A DNA stretch of 36,101 nucleotides from Candidatus Hydrogenedentota bacterium. Lineage in GTDB: Bacteria; Hydrogenedentota; Hydrogenedentia; Hydrogenedentales; JAEUWI01. The position numbers were made by a program, and so were the translations under genes. Shown one piece after another: positions 22,638-30,602 of the stretch; within the stretch, counting starts at the first letter, position 1; every line of letters starts with the position of its first letter. The DNA lies in NCBI GenBank assembly GCA_024280935.1, contig JAJRPE010000074.1, positions 1-36,101 on the forward strand, written 5' to 3'. Below the pieces are notes generated by a model that saw only the letters and a program-made list of their open reading frames with translations, made no database searches and was not told the origin of the DNA.

Positions 22638-23795
22638 CTACAAGTTCACGATTCTCATGTGCTTCTTGGATATCTTTGCCACGCCAGTCTTGGTCAACCG
22701 AACGCCGTTTTCCCAGCGCAGACCAAAATCCTTGTCGTGGAAGAAGGTATCCACTTGAAAAGTCATGTTTTCTTCGAGCGTGTAGTCGGAGGTCGATTCC
22801 ATCCAAGGGCGCTCGACTTCCATCATGCCAATCCCGTGGCAGGGTCCGTAGAGCATGTGCTTCATGAAACCCCGTTTCTTAACAAAGGCCTCGTATTCGC
22901 GGACCACTTCGGCGGCCGACTTGCCGGGCTTCAAAAGCTCGGCGGTCTTGAAATGGGCTTCGAGTCCAAAATCGACGAGACGCTGCTTGCGGGCGGGGAG
23001 CTTGCCAATGCAAATGGGCAATCCGACACTCGATGAGTAGCCCCCGACCCGCGCACCAATATTGAGTTGGATGATCTCGTTCTTCTTAATCTTGTTGTGG
23101 GTGGGACGGGAAATGGCATGTTTGGTCGCCGGACCGCAGAAACAGTAGAGGGCATGCCCCTCGTACTCGCCGCCGTGGGCATAGATCTCTCGTTGCGCGA
23201 TACCAATAACTTGTAGCTCCGTCATGCCGGGCTTAATCTCATTGAGAATGGCATCCACGGCCTTTTCGCTGACTTGGTAGGCTTTCTTCGCGAGTCGCAA
23301 TTCATTGGGACTCTTGTCGATGCGCAGGTGGATCAGGGTGTCGTCCGCCTTGATGAGCTTGACCTTTGGCAGCTCTTGCGTCAGGCTCATGTAGACAGGC
23401 AGGGGCATGATGGAGTAGCCCACGAGTCCCAGCTTCTTGAGCTTGCCGTTCGGCATCGCTTTCTTGACGATATCCTTGAAATTTGCCACGGCAATACCCG
23501 GATAGTCCGGGTCGGCGGATTCGCGGTACTCCACCATCATCTCGATACGCCGTATCTTGCTGCGGCCCTTGGCGTAGGCTTCGCTTTCCGGTCCTATAAT
23601 GAGAATGGGGGATCCTTTGGCGGGCACAAAGACGCCTGCCGATTCGAAGGTCGGCCAGTATTCCGACAAATACCGCACGTTCGCGAAATCCGCCTCATTG
23701 GAATGGACAAGGGCGGCATCCAGCCCGGCTTCACGAATGTTCTTCTGAAACTTTTTGATCCGGTCTTTGTACTCTTTGTCGGGTATACGTTGCAT
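22638..23795 (-). CDS. M24-family (creatinase/aminopeptidase P fold) protein lacking metal ligands
   Basis: The protein has 385 residues, with a creatinase-type N-terminal domain (about 1-150) and a pita-bread C-terminal domain. The usual first Asp ligand is Asn245 (LNIGARVGGYSSS) and the second is Ser256. The His is kept (GPCHGIG, His320), the next Glu is Asp349 (FQVDTF), and the last Glu falls in VRLTKTG, without acid. A metal-dependent aminopeptidase is therefore unlikely. Creatinase itself works without metal and keeps a different His near HAISRPTHN, which is similar here. It is cytoplasmic. A paralogue lies at 28.2-29.4 kb. The substrate is unknown. Confidence 0.85.
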   Translation of the reverse strand: MQRIPDKEYKDRIKKFQKNIREAGLDAALVHSNEADFANVRYLSEYWPTFESAGVFVPAKGSPILIIGPESEAYAKGRSKIRRIEMMVEYRESADPDYPGIAVANFKDIVKKAMPNGKLKKLGLVGYSIMPLPVYMSLTQELPKVKLIKADDTLIHLRIDKSPNELRLAKKAYQVSEKAVDAILNEIKPGMTELQVIGIAQREIYAHGGEYEGHALYCFCGPATKHAISRPTHNKIKKNEIIQLNIGARVGGYSSSVGLPICIGKLPARKQRLVDFGLEAHFKTAELLKPGKSAAEVVREYEAFVKKRGFMKHMLYGPCHGIGMMEVERPWMESTSDYTLEENMTFQVDTFFHDKDFGLRWENGVRLTKTGVAKISKKHMRIVNL

Positions 23796-24114: not shown

Positions 24115-25002
24115 TCAATAAAGCTCAGCCAATTGGCGTGTTTGATAAAATTGTGCGCCTTGTGACAGCAGCTTCTTGATGAGGATATCCAGCTGCTCTG
24201 TCGCGTAGTCGCCGCAGTTTTTTACGATAAACGGATCGGGGGTAACGGCACCCTCGCCGTAGTGGATGGCCCCTTCCGGCATGGGATGAAATTCCCAGGG
24301 GTGCATGTAGAAACACAATACAGGCACGCTTACGCCCTGTTCAATCGCGAAGGCCGTGAAACTGTCGATGTGCTTGAGAAGGGCTTCGGCGCTTTCGGTG
24401 CGGAACAGGGGCCATTGGTCGAGGTCGCGACCAAAGGGGTCTTTGTGGGGCCGGCCCAAATCAGCAAAATTAGGAATCTGGAGCAGACGCATCGAGCCGG
24501 GTATGGTCCAATCCTTTTCCGAAGGATGATAGGGTTCCAGCCGGTCGCGGAAGTGGAACATGGGCAAGGTCGCATCAGCGACATAGCCTAGTTCCTCCAG
24601 GGCATTGGTCACAATGGTGGAGCCAAACAAGCGGGGGCACCGAAACGAAACCGGACGTTCGCCCGCAATGGACTCAATTAGCTCGGTGCATTTCCTCAGT
24701 CGGTTGGGCACCTCTTCGGGCAAGATGGGGAAGGCTCCGGGAATAGGCCACAGCGGCTCCCCAATCGTTTCGTGGAAAAGGGTATGGGCCGCCACTTCGT
24801 GCCCGGCCTCTTTTACGGCCTGAACGACTTCGGGCGCTTCCTTTGCCGCATCACCGGTAAAGAAGAAGGTGGCGGTTACGTTGTTTTTTGCCAGGGTATC
24901 GAGGATGGCTGCGGCACCAGGGCGGAGTCCCTCGTAAAAGGGGGTCCAGCTCCCGATATCGGTTTCCATGTCAAAGCCGAGGGCTACCCGTGACGATTCC
25001 AC
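24115..25002 (-). CDS. polysaccharide deacetylase family protein, cytoplasmic
   Basis: This 295-residue protein has a NodB-type fold: LGFDMETDIG at the start, which supplies the catalytic and metal Asp, TATFFFTGDAA, then HEVAAHTLFHE, giving the HxxxH metal pair. There is no signal peptide. The sequence resembles PuuE-like or sugar-processing deacetylases more than cell-wall enzymes. The GTG start overlaps the preceding gene's stop by one base (TAGTG), so translation is coupled. It is the last gene of the symporter operon, which suggests it acts on an imported N-acetylated or amide compound; the substrate is not known. Confidence 0.85.
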   Translation of the reverse strand: MESSRVALGFDMETDIGSWTPFYEGLRPGAAAILDTLAKNNVTATFFFTGDAAKEAPEVVQAVKEAGHEVAAHTLFHETIGEPLWPIPGAFPILPEEVPNRLRKCTELIESIAGERPVSFRCPRLFGSTIVTNALEELGYVADATLPMFHFRDRLEPYHPSEKDWTIPGSMRLLQIPNFADLGRPHKDPFGRDLDQWPLFRTESAEALLKHIDSFTAFAIEQGVSVPVLCFYMHPWEFHPMPEGAIHYGEGAVTPDPFIVKNCGDYATEQLDILIKKLLSQGAQFYQTRQLAELY

Positions 25003-26042
25003 TAGATTTTCTCCATGAAGGTGATATGCTCTCGTTCCCGCAAGTAACGTTTCAGTTCGGATATCGGACCCTGTAAAATGAGTGTCTCCGACTGAATTCG
25101 GCTTGGCGCGACCAAGTCATTGCAGGTTTGCAACGCGCCGATAGTTTCAAGTTCGTAGAAGTCCAGATCGCCACCATTAAAGACGCTGTAAAGGTCACGG
25201 GCCGACCAGGGTCCCCCGGGCTGATCATTGTCGGCGATGTTGAAATAGCGCCCGCCCTGCTCGGCGGTCTTGCGCAGCACCAATAAATTTCTTGCCGGAT
25301 CCAGCGAGCCTATGAGGCGCGGGGAATGGGACACGGACACACCGATCTGGTGGCGGTCCGGGCCGCCCAGCGCAAAGGTAAAGCCCCCGTCGTGGTATTG
25401 GATACGGTCACCAGGAACACCGTAGTAATCATCGTTCACGCACCCGTTGGAATCGGTTACGGCCGCAAAGGCGATGATACCGTCGCCCCCCGGAAACTGC
25501 TCCAGCGACCAAGGCGCGATGAGGAAGGTCTCAACCTCGAGATCATCCTCTACGGCAATGGCATCGTCACAGAAATAGCGTATTCCCTTGAGGTCGAAGC
25601 CCTCGGGTACCGGGTGGTCGTGGGCAATCGATACGTTGCGGAGCATGGTAACCGTCGTGGTCACGCCAGCTCTGTTGATTAAGGTGCCCGACTTCATGAT
25701 GAGCGCCTGGTCTTCATCCGCATCCATAATTTCGGCGGGTGCATCGCCCACGAGGGAAGGCACGTACCATTCATCACTGTCCGGGGGATAGTTGAAGGCG
25801 AAGGACCCGCCTTCTGGTGCGGGCCACAGCGAGTTTCCGCCCAGATTGTTGAACTCCGTTTTGGAGGGTTTCGCCACCAGGGGCACATCAAGCCGATGAA
25901 TCAGTTCATCGCCCAAGGTGCAGAAAATGCGCCCTTGCAGCTTTGGGCAGACGAAGACAATACCATCTTGCCCCGGCAGTGGCACCACATCTGGAGCGTG
26001 GACCCGCAGACAATCAATAAACTCCGCCAGCGTTACAGCCAT
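25002..26042 (-). CDS. conserved hypothetical protein resembling DUF6786
   Basis: A 346-residue soluble protein without signal peptide. The segment FNNLGGNSLWPAPEGGSF and the later RYFNIADNDQPGGP recall the DUF6786 family of planctomycete-like bacteria, probably an all-beta, aldose-epimerase-like sandwich; this is from memory, not a search. It begins 8 bases after the 54-aa membrane protein and overlaps the deacetylase by one base, so it belongs to the symporter operon. A sugar mutarotase-like or binding role would fit, but no catalytic residues are evident. Confidence 0.72.
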   Translation of the reverse strand: MAVTLAEFIDCLRVHAPDVVPLPGQDGIVFVCPKLQGRIFCTLGDELIHRLDVPLVAKPSKTEFNNLGGNSLWPAPEGGSFAFNYPPDSDEWYVPSLVGDAPAEIMDADEDQALIMKSGTLINRAGVTTTVTMLRNVSIAHDHPVPEGFDLKGIRYFCDDAIAVEDDLEVETFLIAPWSLEQFPGGDGIIAFAAVTDSNGCVNDDYYGVPGDRIQYHDGGFTFALGGPDRHQIGVSVSHSPRLIGSLDPARNLLVLRKTAEQGGRYFNIADNDQPGGPWSARDLYSVFNGGDLDFYELETIGALQTCNDLVAPSRIQSETLILQGPISELKRYLREREHITFMEKI

Positions 26043-26050
26043 GCCGTGCC

Positions 26051-26215
26051 TTACTCCTCTACGTTTTCTTCGGAAGTTTCGTGCCCCTCACGCAAGGTGC
26101 GCAGCAGGGACTTGATATCGCGTGCCCCCTGGATCGTTACCCATACGGCCATGATGGAAAAGCTGCCTACACTTAGAATCATCAGCCATTTCCATAGTCC
26201 CATCCAGAAATTCAT
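26051..26215 (-). CDS. 54-residue single-pass membrane protein coupled to the SSS symporter
   Basis: This small gene runs from ATG 26215 to TAA 26051, with GGAGG eight bases upstream inside the symporter gene. Its ATG overlaps the symporter stop as ATGA. The product has a hydrophobic segment at about residues 6-30 (GLWKWLMILSVGSFSIMAVW) and then a charged amphipathic tail (ARDIKSLLRTLREGHE) ending in acidic residues. It is shorter than the known small partners of SSS transporters (DUF4212 and YhdT types) and I do not recognise its family. Strict coupling suggests a subunit or stabiliser of the symporter. Confidence 0.75.
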   Translation of the reverse strand: MNFWMGLWKWLMILSVGSFSIMAVWVTIQGARDIKSLLRTLREGHETSEENVEE

Positions 26216-27804
26216 GGGGTTTCCTCCGTGGTATTTCTGATGCCCTTATCGGGAAAGAGCAGTGAGCCGATTATCATACCCGTACACGCCAGCGCGACCG
26301 TGGTCAGTCCGATATGAGCACTCGTGGCCCATTCCATGAACGAATCAGCGGTGCTGTCCGAGATGGGCAGCACGTGATAAACGACCATGCCCCGAAAATC
26401 CTCGAACCCCATAAAGGCGAAAAAACCAGCCGTGAGGGCGGCATAGGCCCCCGCGTTGCTGGCTGGCTTCCAATACAAACCCGCAACGAGTAAAGCGAAT
26501 GCCCCGCAGAAATACAGCGCGGCCGTCATCGACATAAAGTCCCACAGGCTCTGCTTTAAGGGAAAGAAGAAACTGATGAGAAGAATGGTGATGCCAATGG
26601 CGATGATGAAAGCGCGGGTAATGTAGATTTGGGCGCGTTGCGATACTTCCCTGCCAACCAGTGGAATAACCACGTCGTTGGTGAGGACCGTGCTCCAGCA
26701 CAAAAGGTAGCTGTCGTGGGTGGACATGAAGGCCGCAATCATGGCCGCAGTTACAATACCTATGATGCCCATGGGAAGGATGCGCCCCAGGAATACAGGC
26801 ATGGCGAAAAGCGTATCAATGGCGGTGTCCGATTCCATGCCTGGCTGGAAGGCTTCCTTGAGCTCAGGAATCGTCATAAAGGCAGCAAAGGCAGCAATGC
26901 CCCAGAAGAAGGGGATGATAGTGCGGATGAAAAAGGACAAGGAACCAAACATGAACTGCCGCTTGACGGTCTGCTCGCTATCACACGCCAGCGCACGTGC
27001 CACCGACGTGGGCCAGATGGCGCAGACCACGAGCCCCATGAAGGCCATCCATATCACGTAACTGGACCCGAACTCTCCCCCCTCCATCAGGGGATTGTAG
27101 GCGGCTTCTCCCTTCTCCGCCACCACGACGGATACAATGTCGCTCCAGGAAATAAAGTAGAGGGCCATCCCGGTGGTGACCAGCAGGCCCATGGAGAGGA
27201 CGACGAACTGAATGTAATCGGTGATGATAACCGACACCATACCGCCCAGGACCGTGTAGAACAGCACGAGACTCAAGAGAGCCACCATCACTACATTAAG
27301 GATGGCACCGTCCATGGGGAGTCCGGTAATACCCACGATAAACTTTGCACCGGCGTTGAGATACATCCCCATACAGAAGATACCGCCCAGCGCCAGCAAA
27401 AGGGCGCCATAGACTTGGACCCCCTTCCCGTAGCGCTTGCCGTAAAACTCGGGAATTGTCAGTACTTCATGACGACGCAAATCGGCCACGATGAATCCGG
27501 TCAGACCCACGAAGAAGGTGACCACACCGGCCAACAGGCCAATATGAAAGGCAGCAAAGCCTCCCAGATAACCCACCTGGGCGTTGTACATCACCGTAAC
27601 GAGGCCCAGCTCCGTCCCCGTAAGGGTCGCCACGGAAAGGGCGGTGCGTACGCCGCGCCCCGCCACCACATAATCGGTCATATTGCCGATGTACCGGTTG
27701 GCAATAATCCCAATGGCGACGGAGATAGAGAGGTAAACCGCCACAATGCCCCAGTCCAAGCCGGAAAAATTGGTACCTTGGATAATCGCGTCAAACTGGT
27801 CCAT
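26212..27804 (-). CDS. sodium:solute symporter (SSS) family transporter
   Basis: This 530-residue polytopic inner-membrane protein starts at ATG 27804 with AAAGGA five bases upstream; the longer frame to 27852 lacks a site. About 13 hydrophobic segments are visible. The first helices contain DWGIVAVYLSISVAIGI and TLTGTELGLVTVMYNAQVG, and the family segment YTVLGGMVSVIITDYIQFVV follows. The Na2-site region reads AFMSTHDSYLLCWSTVLTND, close to the SSS pattern. It would import a small organic solute, plausibly a sugar or sialic-acid-like compound, with Na+. It heads a tight operon with the 54-aa protein, a DUF6786-like protein and a deacetylase. A weak promoter candidate is TTGACG (27860-27865, minus strand) with TAGGCT 18 bases downstream. 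Confidence 0.92.
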   Translation of the reverse strand: MDQFDAIIQGTNFSGLDWGIVAVYLSISVAIGIIANRYIGNMTDYVVAGRGVRTALSVATLTGTELGLVTVMYNAQVGYLGGFAAFHIGLLAGVVTFFVGLTGFIVADLRRHEVLTIPEFYGKRYGKGVQVYGALLLALGGIFCMGMYLNAGAKFIVGITGLPMDGAILNVVMVALLSLVLFYTVLGGMVSVIITDYIQFVVLSMGLLVTTGMALYFISWSDIVSVVVAEKGEAAYNPLMEGGEFGSSYVIWMAFMGLVVCAIWPTSVARALACDSEQTVKRQFMFGSLSFFIRTIIPFFWGIAAFAAFMTIPELKEAFQPGMESDTAIDTLFAMPVFLGRILPMGIIGIVTAAMIAAFMSTHDSYLLCWSTVLTNDVVIPLVGREVSQRAQIYITRAFIIAIGITILLISFFFPLKQSLWDFMSMTAALYFCGAFALLVAGLYWKPASNAGAYAALTAGFFAFMGFEDFRGMVVYHVLPISDSTADSFMEWATSAHIGLTTVALACTGMIIGSLLFPDKGIRNTTEETP

Positions 27805-27940
27805 AGATTCCTTTCGCGGATAACAACGTCGAGTTAGCCTAATCGAAGTCATTGCGCGTCGTCAAATTGCGTTTCGACAACCGTTGAATTCAGGTGGGCT
27901 TCTTCCACAACCCAAGACCGTCATCCCCGTTTTCATGGGA

Positions 27941-28190: not shown

Positions 28191-29357
28191 CTATCCAAGC
28201 AGATACGCATCCATCCTGGGACTGAAAGGAACAGGGCCATTCTCGGTGATTTCATAGCCAGTTTCGATGCGGGCACCATGCCACTTGGGATGGCCAAAGA
28301 AACTGATGTCCACACATACGGCCATGCCAACTTTCAGCACATCTTCGCTGCCGGGTCCGAAGAAAGGGGATTCTGCCTCATGCAGCCCAATAGTGTGGGC
28401 AAAGGGGCACACCAGATAGGGCATGAGGCCGTGCTTTTCGTAATAGGTCCGGCCCGGCACATCAATTTCTTTGCCCTTGACGCCCGGCTTGAGCAGCGCC
28501 TTGGTCAGCCGAAAGACCTCCTTGAGATGATTCAGGCACTCCTCCTGGTCGGCGGTATAGGTGCCGGAAACGGGAAGCAGGTCGCCCATCACGCCAGCGT
28601 AACCGTTGACCTTGGGGGCCAAGCCAATCATCACCAGTTCACCTTCCTCCATGACACGCCCCGTCGCCGTGGGGACGACCGCTTTCGCACGAGGGCCAGA
28701 ACCGACAATCGCTGTAAAGCCAAATCCTGTGGCACCTTTGTCCCGCGCCGCAAACTCACCCGCTGCCGCGACTTCGATCTCCGATATACCAGGGGCAATC
28801 TTGGCCTTCATCGCATCGAAGGAGCGATCCGCCAGGGCGAATGCGGCCCGAATCTGCTCCAATTCCCACGGGGATTTGTAAAAGCGCAACGCGACGAATT
28901 CGTCCGTGATATCAACCAGGGTCGTGCCGCTGAATCCCGCTTCGATTTGGCTGTAGCATTCGGCGGGCATGCGGCCACCGCCGACCATGCCCACGCGCTT
29001 CACTTCACCCAAAGTTTCTTTCAATTCGGCAAAGAGTCCGGGAAAATCCGTAATCTCCGCATTGGGGTATTCCTCGTCAGGCACCATGAACACGGAGAAG
29101 TTCCGCGTTTCGGTGATGGCGCTATCCAGCTTTGCGAAGGGTTCGCTTTCGGGGCCACCCAGTAGCATCGGTTTGCCGGTCTTTGGGACGAGGACCGTGC
29201 CGATTTCAAACTGGGGACACCACCCCGTCAGGTACCAGCCATTTCCGATGTTGAATTCATCGTAGTAGACCAAGGCAATATCCAAATCTTTGGCTGCCAT
29301 GATGGCCCGCACTTTTTCCAAACGTTTGTCGCATTCGCTTTGTGTTAGATAGCCCAT
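28191..29357 (-). CDS. second M24-family (creatinase-fold) protein lacking metal ligands
   Basis: This protein has 388 residues from ATG 29357 (GGAG seven bases upstream). The frame continues to 29960 but would overlap the AraC gene and has no site. The N-terminal domain resembles the protein at 22.6-23.8 kb (GPESEPFAK, VPDEEYPNAEI). In the C-terminal domain the two Asp ligands are replaced: IGLAPKVNGYAGVMGD puts Gly and Val at these positions. The His is kept (FAHTIGLHE), the fourth ligand is Asp (CVDISF) and the last Glu is kept (ARIETGYEI). It is cytoplasmic, divergent from the AraC gene, and may be its target. It probably belongs to the same unknown pathway as its paralogue. Confidence 0.85.
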   Translation of the reverse strand: MGYLTQSECDKRLEKVRAIMAAKDLDIALVYYDEFNIGNGWYLTGWCPQFEIGTVLVPKTGKPMLLGGPESEPFAKLDSAITETRNFSVFMVPDEEYPNAEITDFPGLFAELKETLGEVKRVGMVGGGRMPAECYSQIEAGFSGTTLVDITDEFVALRFYKSPWELEQIRAAFALADRSFDAMKAKIAPGISEIEVAAAGEFAARDKGATGFGFTAIVGSGPRAKAVVPTATGRVMEEGELVMIGLAPKVNGYAGVMGDLLPVSGTYTADQEECLNHLKEVFRLTKALLKPGVKGKEIDVPGRTYYEKHGLMPYLVCPFAHTIGLHEAESPFFGPGSEDVLKVGMAVCVDISFFGHPKWHGARIETGYEITENGPVPFSPRMDAYLLG

Positions 29358-29609
29358 AACTATGCTCCAACTATTGAGAGTCCAAGGATTTATGCAAACC
29401 ACGCACGGGCAACCCTTTGTGGGCCACCGAACAAGCAACCACAATGACAGCATCGCCACAACACGAAGAGCAACGTCAGTCACTGCTTGTATTCTTTGCA
29501 GGTACTGCCTACAATGGGATTGAAGGGGTTTCCACCAACGCCAAGCAGGAAAGGGCATTATGCTATGATTGGGCGAAATTGTATTGTGTGTTTTCGATAA
29601 GGTTTTTGT

Positions 29610-30602
29610 ATGAAACCAAGAATTCCGCCCAAAGCAGCCTATACGTCCACCCTCCACAAAGTGGGCGTCAGCGCCGCAAGACCGGTGCGTGTGGCCTCCT
29701 GGATCGCCGGCATGGAGCGAACAGGGGATATCGCGCCCGGTGATGCGGATTATCCTGGATGGCACTATGGCTCCGCCGTATGGCTGCACGAGCAGGACAA
29801 ACGCTTCCACGATCATGCCTACTTTGAAATTTGCATCGTTCGTCAGGGAACGGCGTGGCATGAAACCGGGTATTCGAGGGATGAATTGGGACCGGGAACC
29901 GTGGTTGTTATGGCTCCGGGAATGGTCCATGCCATTTACAGCGCCCGCGACTTGCACCAAACCAATCTATACTACTTGACGGAATGGCTGGCAGATGACC
30001 TCATGAGCCACTGGAGAGAGGCCGCGTTTGTGCCACTATTCCTCGCTGCCGTGCTCTTTCGCCGAAGCCATATAGGGCCGATTCCCCAGTTCAGTTTGAA
30101 CATCGATGAACTCGGGAGTATCGACCATGAGCTGGCGAATATTACGCGGGAATCCGCTCTGGAACGGCCCTCCCTGATTTTCCTGCGCTCCTGCCTGCTC
30201 AAGATATTGATCGTGATGAGCCGGGCTGCGGTCCGCGAGTCTTCCGTCGAACTGAGCCTTAAATTTCGCAAGGAAGTAGTGACGGGACTGGAACATATCG
30301 AGGACACCATTCTTCGACGGGATAGCTTTCGGGTGGCAAATCTCGCAATAGAGCTGGGACTTTCGCCTGCGAATTTGGCGGTGCAATTTCAAAAGTCCAC
30401 GGGGTGGAGTCCCATGGCCTATTACCAGCATCGGCGCGTACAGCATGCCTGTCGGCTCTTGCTCGATCTGGAAAAGTCCATTACGGATATCGCCTATGAG
30501 CTTGGGTACTGCGACTCGGCCCACTTCACGCACCTCTTCAAGAAGCACCAAGGGACATTACCTTCGGAATACCGGCGGCTCTACGCGAAGACCAAGAGAT
30601 AA
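29610..30602 (+). CDS. AraC-family transcriptional regulator
   Basis: This is a 330-residue cytoplasmic regulator. The N-terminal half has an AraC cupin-like ligand domain (FHDHAYFEICIVRQG, GPGTVVVMAPGMVHAIYS). The C-terminal half has the two helix-turn-helix units: RVANLAIELGLSPANLAVQF, and SITDIAYELGYCDSAHFTHL followed by FKKHQGTLPSEYRR, the family signature. The start at 29610 has only a weak AAGG eight bases upstream. It is transcribed away from the second M24 gene with about 250 bases between them, so that gap is a likely regulatory site. It probably senses a carbohydrate and may act on neighbouring hydrolase or symporter genes. Confidence 0.93.
   Translation: MKPRIPPKAAYTSTLHKVGVSAARPVRVASWIAGMERTGDIAPGDADYPGWHYGSAVWLHEQDKRFHDHAYFEICIVRQGTAWHETGYSRDELGPGTVVVMAPGMVHAIYSARDLHQTNLYYLTEWLADDLMSHWREAAFVPLFLAAVLFRRSHIGPIPQFSLNIDELGSIDHELANITRESALERPSLIFLRSCLLKILIVMSRAAVRESSVELSLKFRKEVVTGLEHIEDTILRRDSFRVANLAIELGLSPANLAVQFQKSTGWSPMAYYQHRRVQHACRLLLDLEKSITDIAYELGYCDSAHFTHLFKKHQGTLPSEYRRLYAKTKR

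Follow-up and report, generated by a model that had tools for sequence, protein, structure and literature searches.

A Small Membrane Protein Gene Overlaps the End of a Symporter Gene

The DNA analyzed here (the window) is a stretch of 36,101 nucleotides from a Candidatus Hydrogenedentota bacterium. On its minus strand, a gene for a sodium:solute symporter of the SSS family is followed by a 54-residue frame for a small protein and by the genes for a DUF6786 protein and a polysaccharide deacetylase (Table 1). The stop codon of the symporter gene (TGA, 26212-26214) and the start codon of the small gene (ATG, 26213-26215) share letters in an ATGA overlap, and a GGAGG motif precedes the small frame. 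Both the overlap and the strong ribosome binding site were described in an earlier, sequence-only reading of the window, and the letters bear it out. The DUF6786 gene is probably on the same transcript as the small gene.

Table 1. Positions of the symporter gene, the small gene, and associated features in the window
Feature	Position	Strand	Basis
SSS (SLC5-type) sodium:solute symporter gene	26212-27852	minus	PF00474 match (E 3.4e-28); hydropathy; profile match to vSGLT and hSGLT1
Small symporter-associated membrane protein gene	26051-26215	minus	54 aa, ATG start; ORF, homologues, conservation, and selection in relatives
ATGA overlap of symporter stop codon and small-gene start codon	26212-26215	minus	Sequence; the -4 offset recurs at 32 of 56 distinct loci
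Shine-Dalgarno GGAGG within the end of the symporter coding region	26223-26227	minus	7 nt before the small-gene ATG
Transmembrane helix of the small protein, residues 8-29 (W8 to Q29)	26129-26194	minus	Hydropathy; AlphaFold2 helix
Amphipathic tail, predicted cytosolic (residues 30-45, including G30, D33, L37, L38, and L41)	26081-26128	minus	Conservation; charge count
DUF6786 protein gene	25002-26042	minus	PF20583 match (E 5e-22); 8 nt downstream of the small gene
Polysaccharide deacetylase (NodB-type) family gene	24115-25002	minus	PF01522 match (E 1.8e-19); 1-nt overlap with the DUF6786 gene

The symporter frame encodes 546 aa from its first ATG, and the real start is probably at position 27804, giving a protein of 530 aa. 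Its match to PF00474 spans profile positions 1-406, the full length of the family profile, and the chain ends after TM12. The mean hydropathy over 45 symporters with a separate small gene (split symporters) likewise stops after TM12. Only the vSGLT/SGLT subgroup has a TM13 as its last helix, and PutP-type SSS members also lack it, so its absence is no bar to SSS/SLC5 membership. An AlphaFold2 model of the window symporter from a three-sequence alignment had a pLDDT of 35 and was discarded.

A single stretch of the small protein is hydrophobic (residues 10-28; mean Kyte-Doolittle value 1.94), and C-terminal to it are G30-A-R-D33 and then a charged amphipathic tail. AlphaFold2 models it as a single continuous helix over residues 3-53 (pLDDT 80). 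The hydropathy and the model thus agree with the earlier description of one hydrophobic helix plus an amphipathic charged tail.

The Small Protein Belongs to a Conserved, Unnamed Family

A second pair of symporter and small gene is found in the same genome on contig C247, and its small protein is 43% identical to that of the window. A family profile (A1) built from 21 members was run on 68 genomes of the window's phylum, all from one order; Hydrogenedentota comprise one order with several families (PMC11406978). The family was detected in 39 of these 68 genomes, 3 of which contain only a form that is fused to a symporter (see below). Matches at E<=0.01, both separate and fused, were also present in 32 of 392 sampled genomes from the phylum of a Phycisphaeraceae MAG (Planctomycetota). 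A homologue is found on a Cetobacterium plasmid as well, and across these groups the small gene is nearly always directly behind an SSS gene.

Across 37 diverse sequences from two phyla (the window protein and 36 homologues), W8, G30, and D33 are invariant, and V26, L38, and L41 are mostly kept. The window protein has no Pfam or NCBIfam match at E<=10, and no Pfam or NCBIfam family could be assigned to the 37 members. Individual members gave scattered Pfam matches (to THB, FAM210A-B, and others, with a best E of 0.01), which were rejected. When PDB sequences were searched with a profile of the small family, the matches were mainly tri-helix pieces of myosin-binding protein C (E>=0.012), which we read as a chance likeness to the amphipathic tail.

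Selection was assessed by comparing the core of the small gene between relatives of the window gene, which is itself in no pair. There were 12 synonymous versus 3 non-synonymous differences in L019/L023 (dN/dS about 0.05), 11 versus 6 in L053/L054 (dN/dS 0.15), 12.5 versus 5.5 in L054/L055 (dN/dS 0.1), and 11.5 versus 11.5 in L074/L078 (dN/dS 0.3). Overall, dN/dS was about 0.05-0.15 in close pairs with usable dS, a mark of strong purifying selection, and about 0.3-0.4 for the Planctomycetota pairs among L074, L076, and L078. The sequence-only reading had named a lack of conservation at the protein level, or equal synonymous and non-synonymous rates, as what would refute its proposal; the invariant residues and the dN/dS values show the opposite on both counts.

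In L003, the nearest relative of the window gene (symporters 80% identical), the small frame is cut short after 15 residues (MNAWMILWKWLMILS), and the ATGA overlap is retained.

Based on these sequence comparisons, we conclude that the 54-residue frame is a real gene for a conserved one-helix membrane protein. What is new here is the family itself, which has no name and serves a single SSS branch in at least two named phyla (Planctomycetota and Fusobacteriota) and probably three.

The Small Gene Is Linked to One Branch of SSS Symporters

The sequence-only reading had proposed a search for short ORFs immediately after SSS genes in related genomes, and such genes were found at 56 distinct loci: of 59 distinct separate members scanned, 56 adjoin an SSS gene and lie directly behind it. 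At 32 of these loci the small-gene start has an offset of exactly -4 nt from the end of the symporter stop codon, and at 47 the small gene overlaps the stop codon or lies within 10 nt of it. The offsets observed were -8, -4, -1, 0, +1, +2, +5, +18, +76, and +124. An ATG start is used at 55 of the 56 loci, and an SD-like motif is present at 52, compared with 38% in shuffled upstream sequence; the observed frequency is somewhat favored, as the SD entered the score by which the starts were chosen.

When the symporters themselves were searched for (E<=1e-60), matches were found at 45 places, 40 of which have a small gene behind the symporter gene; in a few of these 40, the symporter gene is interrupted by problems of frame or contig. 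Two more run off the end of a contig (G050:C608 and G052:C157), leaving three exceptions. For two of these, G026:C70 and G015:C3, the genome keeps a small gene on another contig (G026:C111 and G015:C43). The third, G056:C102, has no small gene behind it in a genome that holds another pair. The lone small genes (L144 and L145), in whose genomes G026:C70 and G015:C3 are the sole close SSS relatives, may represent natural in-trans pairs or assembly breaks. At L150 (G056:C325), the symporter lies in two frames before an intact small gene; either the symporter is frameshifted or the contig is misassembled.

Among the 68 genomes, 36 contain both the symporter branch and the small gene, 1 contains the symporter only (at a contig end), none contains the small gene only, and 31 contain neither (Fisher p 1e-18, with the relatedness of the genomes ignored). 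In this count, G010 and G064 were scored as symporter-positive from their own loci, both of which fall below the E<=1e-60 threshold of the symporter search. The window genome has about 16 SSS genes, and only 2 of them, the window gene and the one on C247, are followed by a small gene. In a tree of 75 SSS proteins, those with a small gene and those with a fused one form a single clade (SH-aLRT 99), and the 14 other SSS proteins of the window genome fall outside it. The fused proteins lie on one side of a branch with support 100. The tree was made quickly and the sequences outside the clade have long branches, so we used only its main split. These data demonstrate that the small gene marks one branch of SSS symporters and is strictly linked to it.

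A Fused Form Exists in a Sister Branch

Thirteen SSS proteins, with open frames of mostly 650-780 aa, end at the C terminus in a sequence like that of the small protein; they are known from Planctomycetota and the window's phylum. In a joint alignment, TM8-TM12 are common to the split and fused symporters, and the split kind ends there. Past TM12, the fused proteins continue with a linker (DLD..LHRG), an extra helix (TM13), the small-protein helix as TM14, and a DDG.V tail. By profile-profile comparison (hhalign), the small family aligns with fused columns 519-567 (E 1e-10), and the split symporters align with fused columns 2-447, that is, up to TM12. Residues W503, W507, W524, G529, D532, and L540 of the fused form correspond to W4, W8, W25, G30, D33, and L41 of the small protein.

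The small protein had been the query in the search that first revealed the fused members, which made a search in the reverse direction important. A profile made from the fused ends alone and run over the 68 genomes recovered separate genes, among them the window gene (E 3.3e-6). On this evidence from both search directions, we conclude that the C-terminal end of the fused symporters is homologous to the small protein. The two arrangements thus share the SSS branch and the C-terminal W..W, G..D, and L positions, but the fused one is a single polypeptide that has TM13 and the linker and that continues past the small-protein part into a DDG.V tail. Judged from sequence, the fusion in a sister branch supports a role as a subunit more strongly than adjacency does.

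A Homologous Pair Is Present in Cetobacterium somerae

A protein search of plasmid records identified a symporter in Cetobacterium somerae (Fusobacteriota; WP_240221216.1) that shares 58.6% identity with one of the relatives of the window symporter. The small gene of this pair encodes 48 aa, has the ATGA overlap and a GAGGAGG motif, and is annotated as "hypothetical protein" (WP_240221218.1, MTNILVGFWKFLICFGLVWYVITIGIVGVKGFKNIKTMLGGINAREEK). The remark that the window gene is too short for most gene finders finds no support here, since a RefSeq-derived record lists this 48-aa homologue as a CDS. WP_240221218.1 scores 31.9 bits against the family profile, and 5000 shuffled versions reach at most 11.5 bits; it does not match the NCBIfam small symporter or NSS accessory proteins. 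It has N at the position of the otherwise invariant D, so the D is not absolutely required.

A gene for a ROK regulator precedes the Cetobacterium pair and a sulfatase gene follows it, which suggests a sugar-related substrate for this symporter. C. somerae is a cultured fish-gut bacterium, and the presence of the pair in it makes an experimental test practical.

Comparison with Known Small Partners of Transporters

Genes for small membrane proteins beside bacterial SSS genes are known from DUF4212, DUF997 (YhdT), DUF485 (YjcH), and DUF3311. Those proteins have two predicted helices and are mostly encoded before the symporter gene, whereas the window protein has one hydrophobic segment and one modeled helix. 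None of the 37 members matched any of these four Pfam profiles at E<=1, in keeping with the early impression that the protein is unlike the DUF4212 or YhdT partners. Short one-helix proteins coupled to the gene of a LeuT-fold transporter are also known, namely MetS/MaaP (NSS) and the NCBI "symporter small accessory protein." The small family resembles these in being a short one-helix protein coupled to a transporter gene but differs from them in sequence. Among the NCBIfam small symporter and NSS accessory models, none matched the window protein at E<=10 and none gave a relevant match to the 37 members. We know of no fused counterpart of MetS/MaaP or of the NCBI accessory protein.

MAP17 (PDZK1IP1), the auxiliary subunit of human SGLT2 (SLC5A2), has an N-out/C-in topology, the orientation predicted for the bacterial small protein, and likewise provides one transmembrane helix for one SSS/SLC5 branch. 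Its single helix contacts TM13, the last helix of human SGLT2, and is considered part of the fixed scaffold, aiding folding and stability (PMC10803289). The systems differ in that MAP17 is eukaryotic and unlinked and that SGLT2 already has TM13, whereas the bacterial split symporter stops after TM12. No sequence relation to MAP17 emerged when PDB sequences were searched with the small-family profile, although this is a weak test with sequences so short.

The Small Protein as a Candidate Accessory Subunit

The suggestion in the sequence-only reading that this may be a new small subunit of a symporter gains support from the sequence conservation, the linkage, and the fusion. We think it probable that the small protein is an accessory subunit of one SSS branch that docks on the symporter scaffold, in the manner of MAP17 and without homology to it; the binding, the stoichiometry, and the effect on transport are what we infer. 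In the proposed mechanism, ribosomes ending translation of the symporter would start the subunit at the ATGA overlap, a coupling that would give near 1:1 amounts and allow the subunit to assemble while the symporter folds. The subunit helix would sit N-out/C-in, and its amphipathic tail would follow the cytosolic surface of the membrane or lie beneath it. Docking would use one conserved face (W8, F/Y19, V26, G30, D33, L37, and L41) and take place on the fixed side of the symporter scaffold, close to the position of TM13/TM14 in the fused form. Like MAP17 for SGLT2, the subunit would probably serve to stabilize the transporter and make it complete, and not to carry substrate.

The predicted orientation follows from the positive-inside rule, since the small proteins have on average 0.25 K/R before the helix versus 3.2 after it. 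Alignment with vSGLT and hSGLT1, whose topology is established, places the end of the split symporters, after TM12, at the cytosolic side. The extra TM13 of the fused form would return the chain to the outside, so TM14 should be oriented like the small protein. The conserved residues form a stripe on one helix face, as would be expected for a helix docked to a fixed partner. With 100 degrees per residue, the moment gave p=0.001-0.006 over residues 4-41, 7-41, and 8-41; p was lower at 97 degrees, an angle examined post hoc. The docking site is placed by position only, because the TM13 of the fused form is missing from the split pair. Points against the subunit proposal are the lone symporter at G056:C102, the N in place of D in Cetobacterium, and the presence in the fused form of a TM13 for which the split pair has no counterpart.

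The chief alternative, which we consider unlikely, is that the small protein is a conditional regulator of the symporter (an inhibitor or protease adaptor, like SgrT, MgtS, or MgtR) and not a constant subunit. Regulation of transporters by small membrane proteins is common (PMC10710835), and the small gene has moved away from the symporter gene in G026 and G015, where it could be regulated separately. However, the overlap of start and stop codons at most loci means that the two proteins are made together, and a sequence that is a covalent part of the symporter throughout the sister branch fits a fixed part better than a switch.

There is still less reason to think that the small protein has a function of its own and shares the operon without contacting the symporter. 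Small genes can hitchhike in operons, and the same two genomes with a displaced gene would fit such independence. Yet no genome of the phylum has the small gene without the symporter branch, only this branch among the roughly 16 SSS genes of the window genome is accompanied by it, and a fused form exists.

It is more improbable again that the small frame is the cut-off end of a longer symporter, produced from an ancestral fused gene by a frameshift or by programmed frameshifting, as the fused form and two frames overlapping at ATGA might suggest. A frameshift product would not be expected to have offsets that vary from -8 to +124, nearly always an ATG and an SD-like motif, and orphan copies that stand alone with their own SD; moreover, the split symporter lacks the TM13 and the linker that the fused form has. 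Finally, although short frames are common (47 ORFs of at least 20 aa overlap positions 24400-26800), a chance frame without a protein product is refuted by conservation, together with the homology, strict neighborhood, purifying selection, SD motifs, and fusion described above.

A broader proposal, which we hold to be evenly balanced between right and wrong, is that this whole SSS branch (in Planctomycetota, Fusobacteriota, and the window's phylum) needs an extra helix for transport, supplied either as a subunit of 45-60 aa or as a fused last helix. It would then be a bacterial counterpart of SGLT2-MAP17 in which the same part works both in cis and in trans. Since the helix exists both in a gene of its own and as the final part of the transporter, its role could be tested by splitting the fused form and joining the separate one. 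It is easy to miss small subunits of sodium symporters: we found no described small SSS subunit of this kind in the literature searched, and the word "subunit" is absent from a 2021 review of prokaryotic SSS transporters (PMC7918813). The proposal would offer a likely role for proteins that are now labeled hypothetical.

Gene Neighborhoods and Other Observations

No constant neighbor that would reveal a substrate was found among the pairs, as M24 peptidases, DUF6786, the NodB-type deacetylase, GH4, and sulfatase each lie near different members. The neighbors in the window (M24 peptidases, DUF6786, and the NodB-type deacetylase) point to no clear substrate. The two M24 (creatinase/prolidase-type) peptidase genes of the window, both on the minus strand, flank the symporter cluster (22638-23795 and 28191-29960), and a further M24 gene lies near a relative pair (L160:9649-10869). 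At two other loci, the small gene is followed by a gene for a protein of ∼350 aa without a Pfam match (L154:12005-13078 and L155:9006-10073); in L154 the gene after it encodes an FHA-domain protein that also matches GAF weakly, and in L155 a frame that starts similarly is found.

In another SSS gene (L095, G000:C118), the reading frame remains open for 37 codons directly past the TAG stop codon at about position 2998 (VGGADMGDRWYKNVFTWWLVFVCGILGLAFIFSGLFL). This extension resembles the last helix of SGLT-type proteins and may be a broken end, a sequence error, or a separately made last helix. The window also encodes, on the minus strand, two large proteins with the middle domain of hydrazine synthase alpha (PF18582; 13272-15719 and 16845-19796), one of which has weak cytochrome c matches as well.
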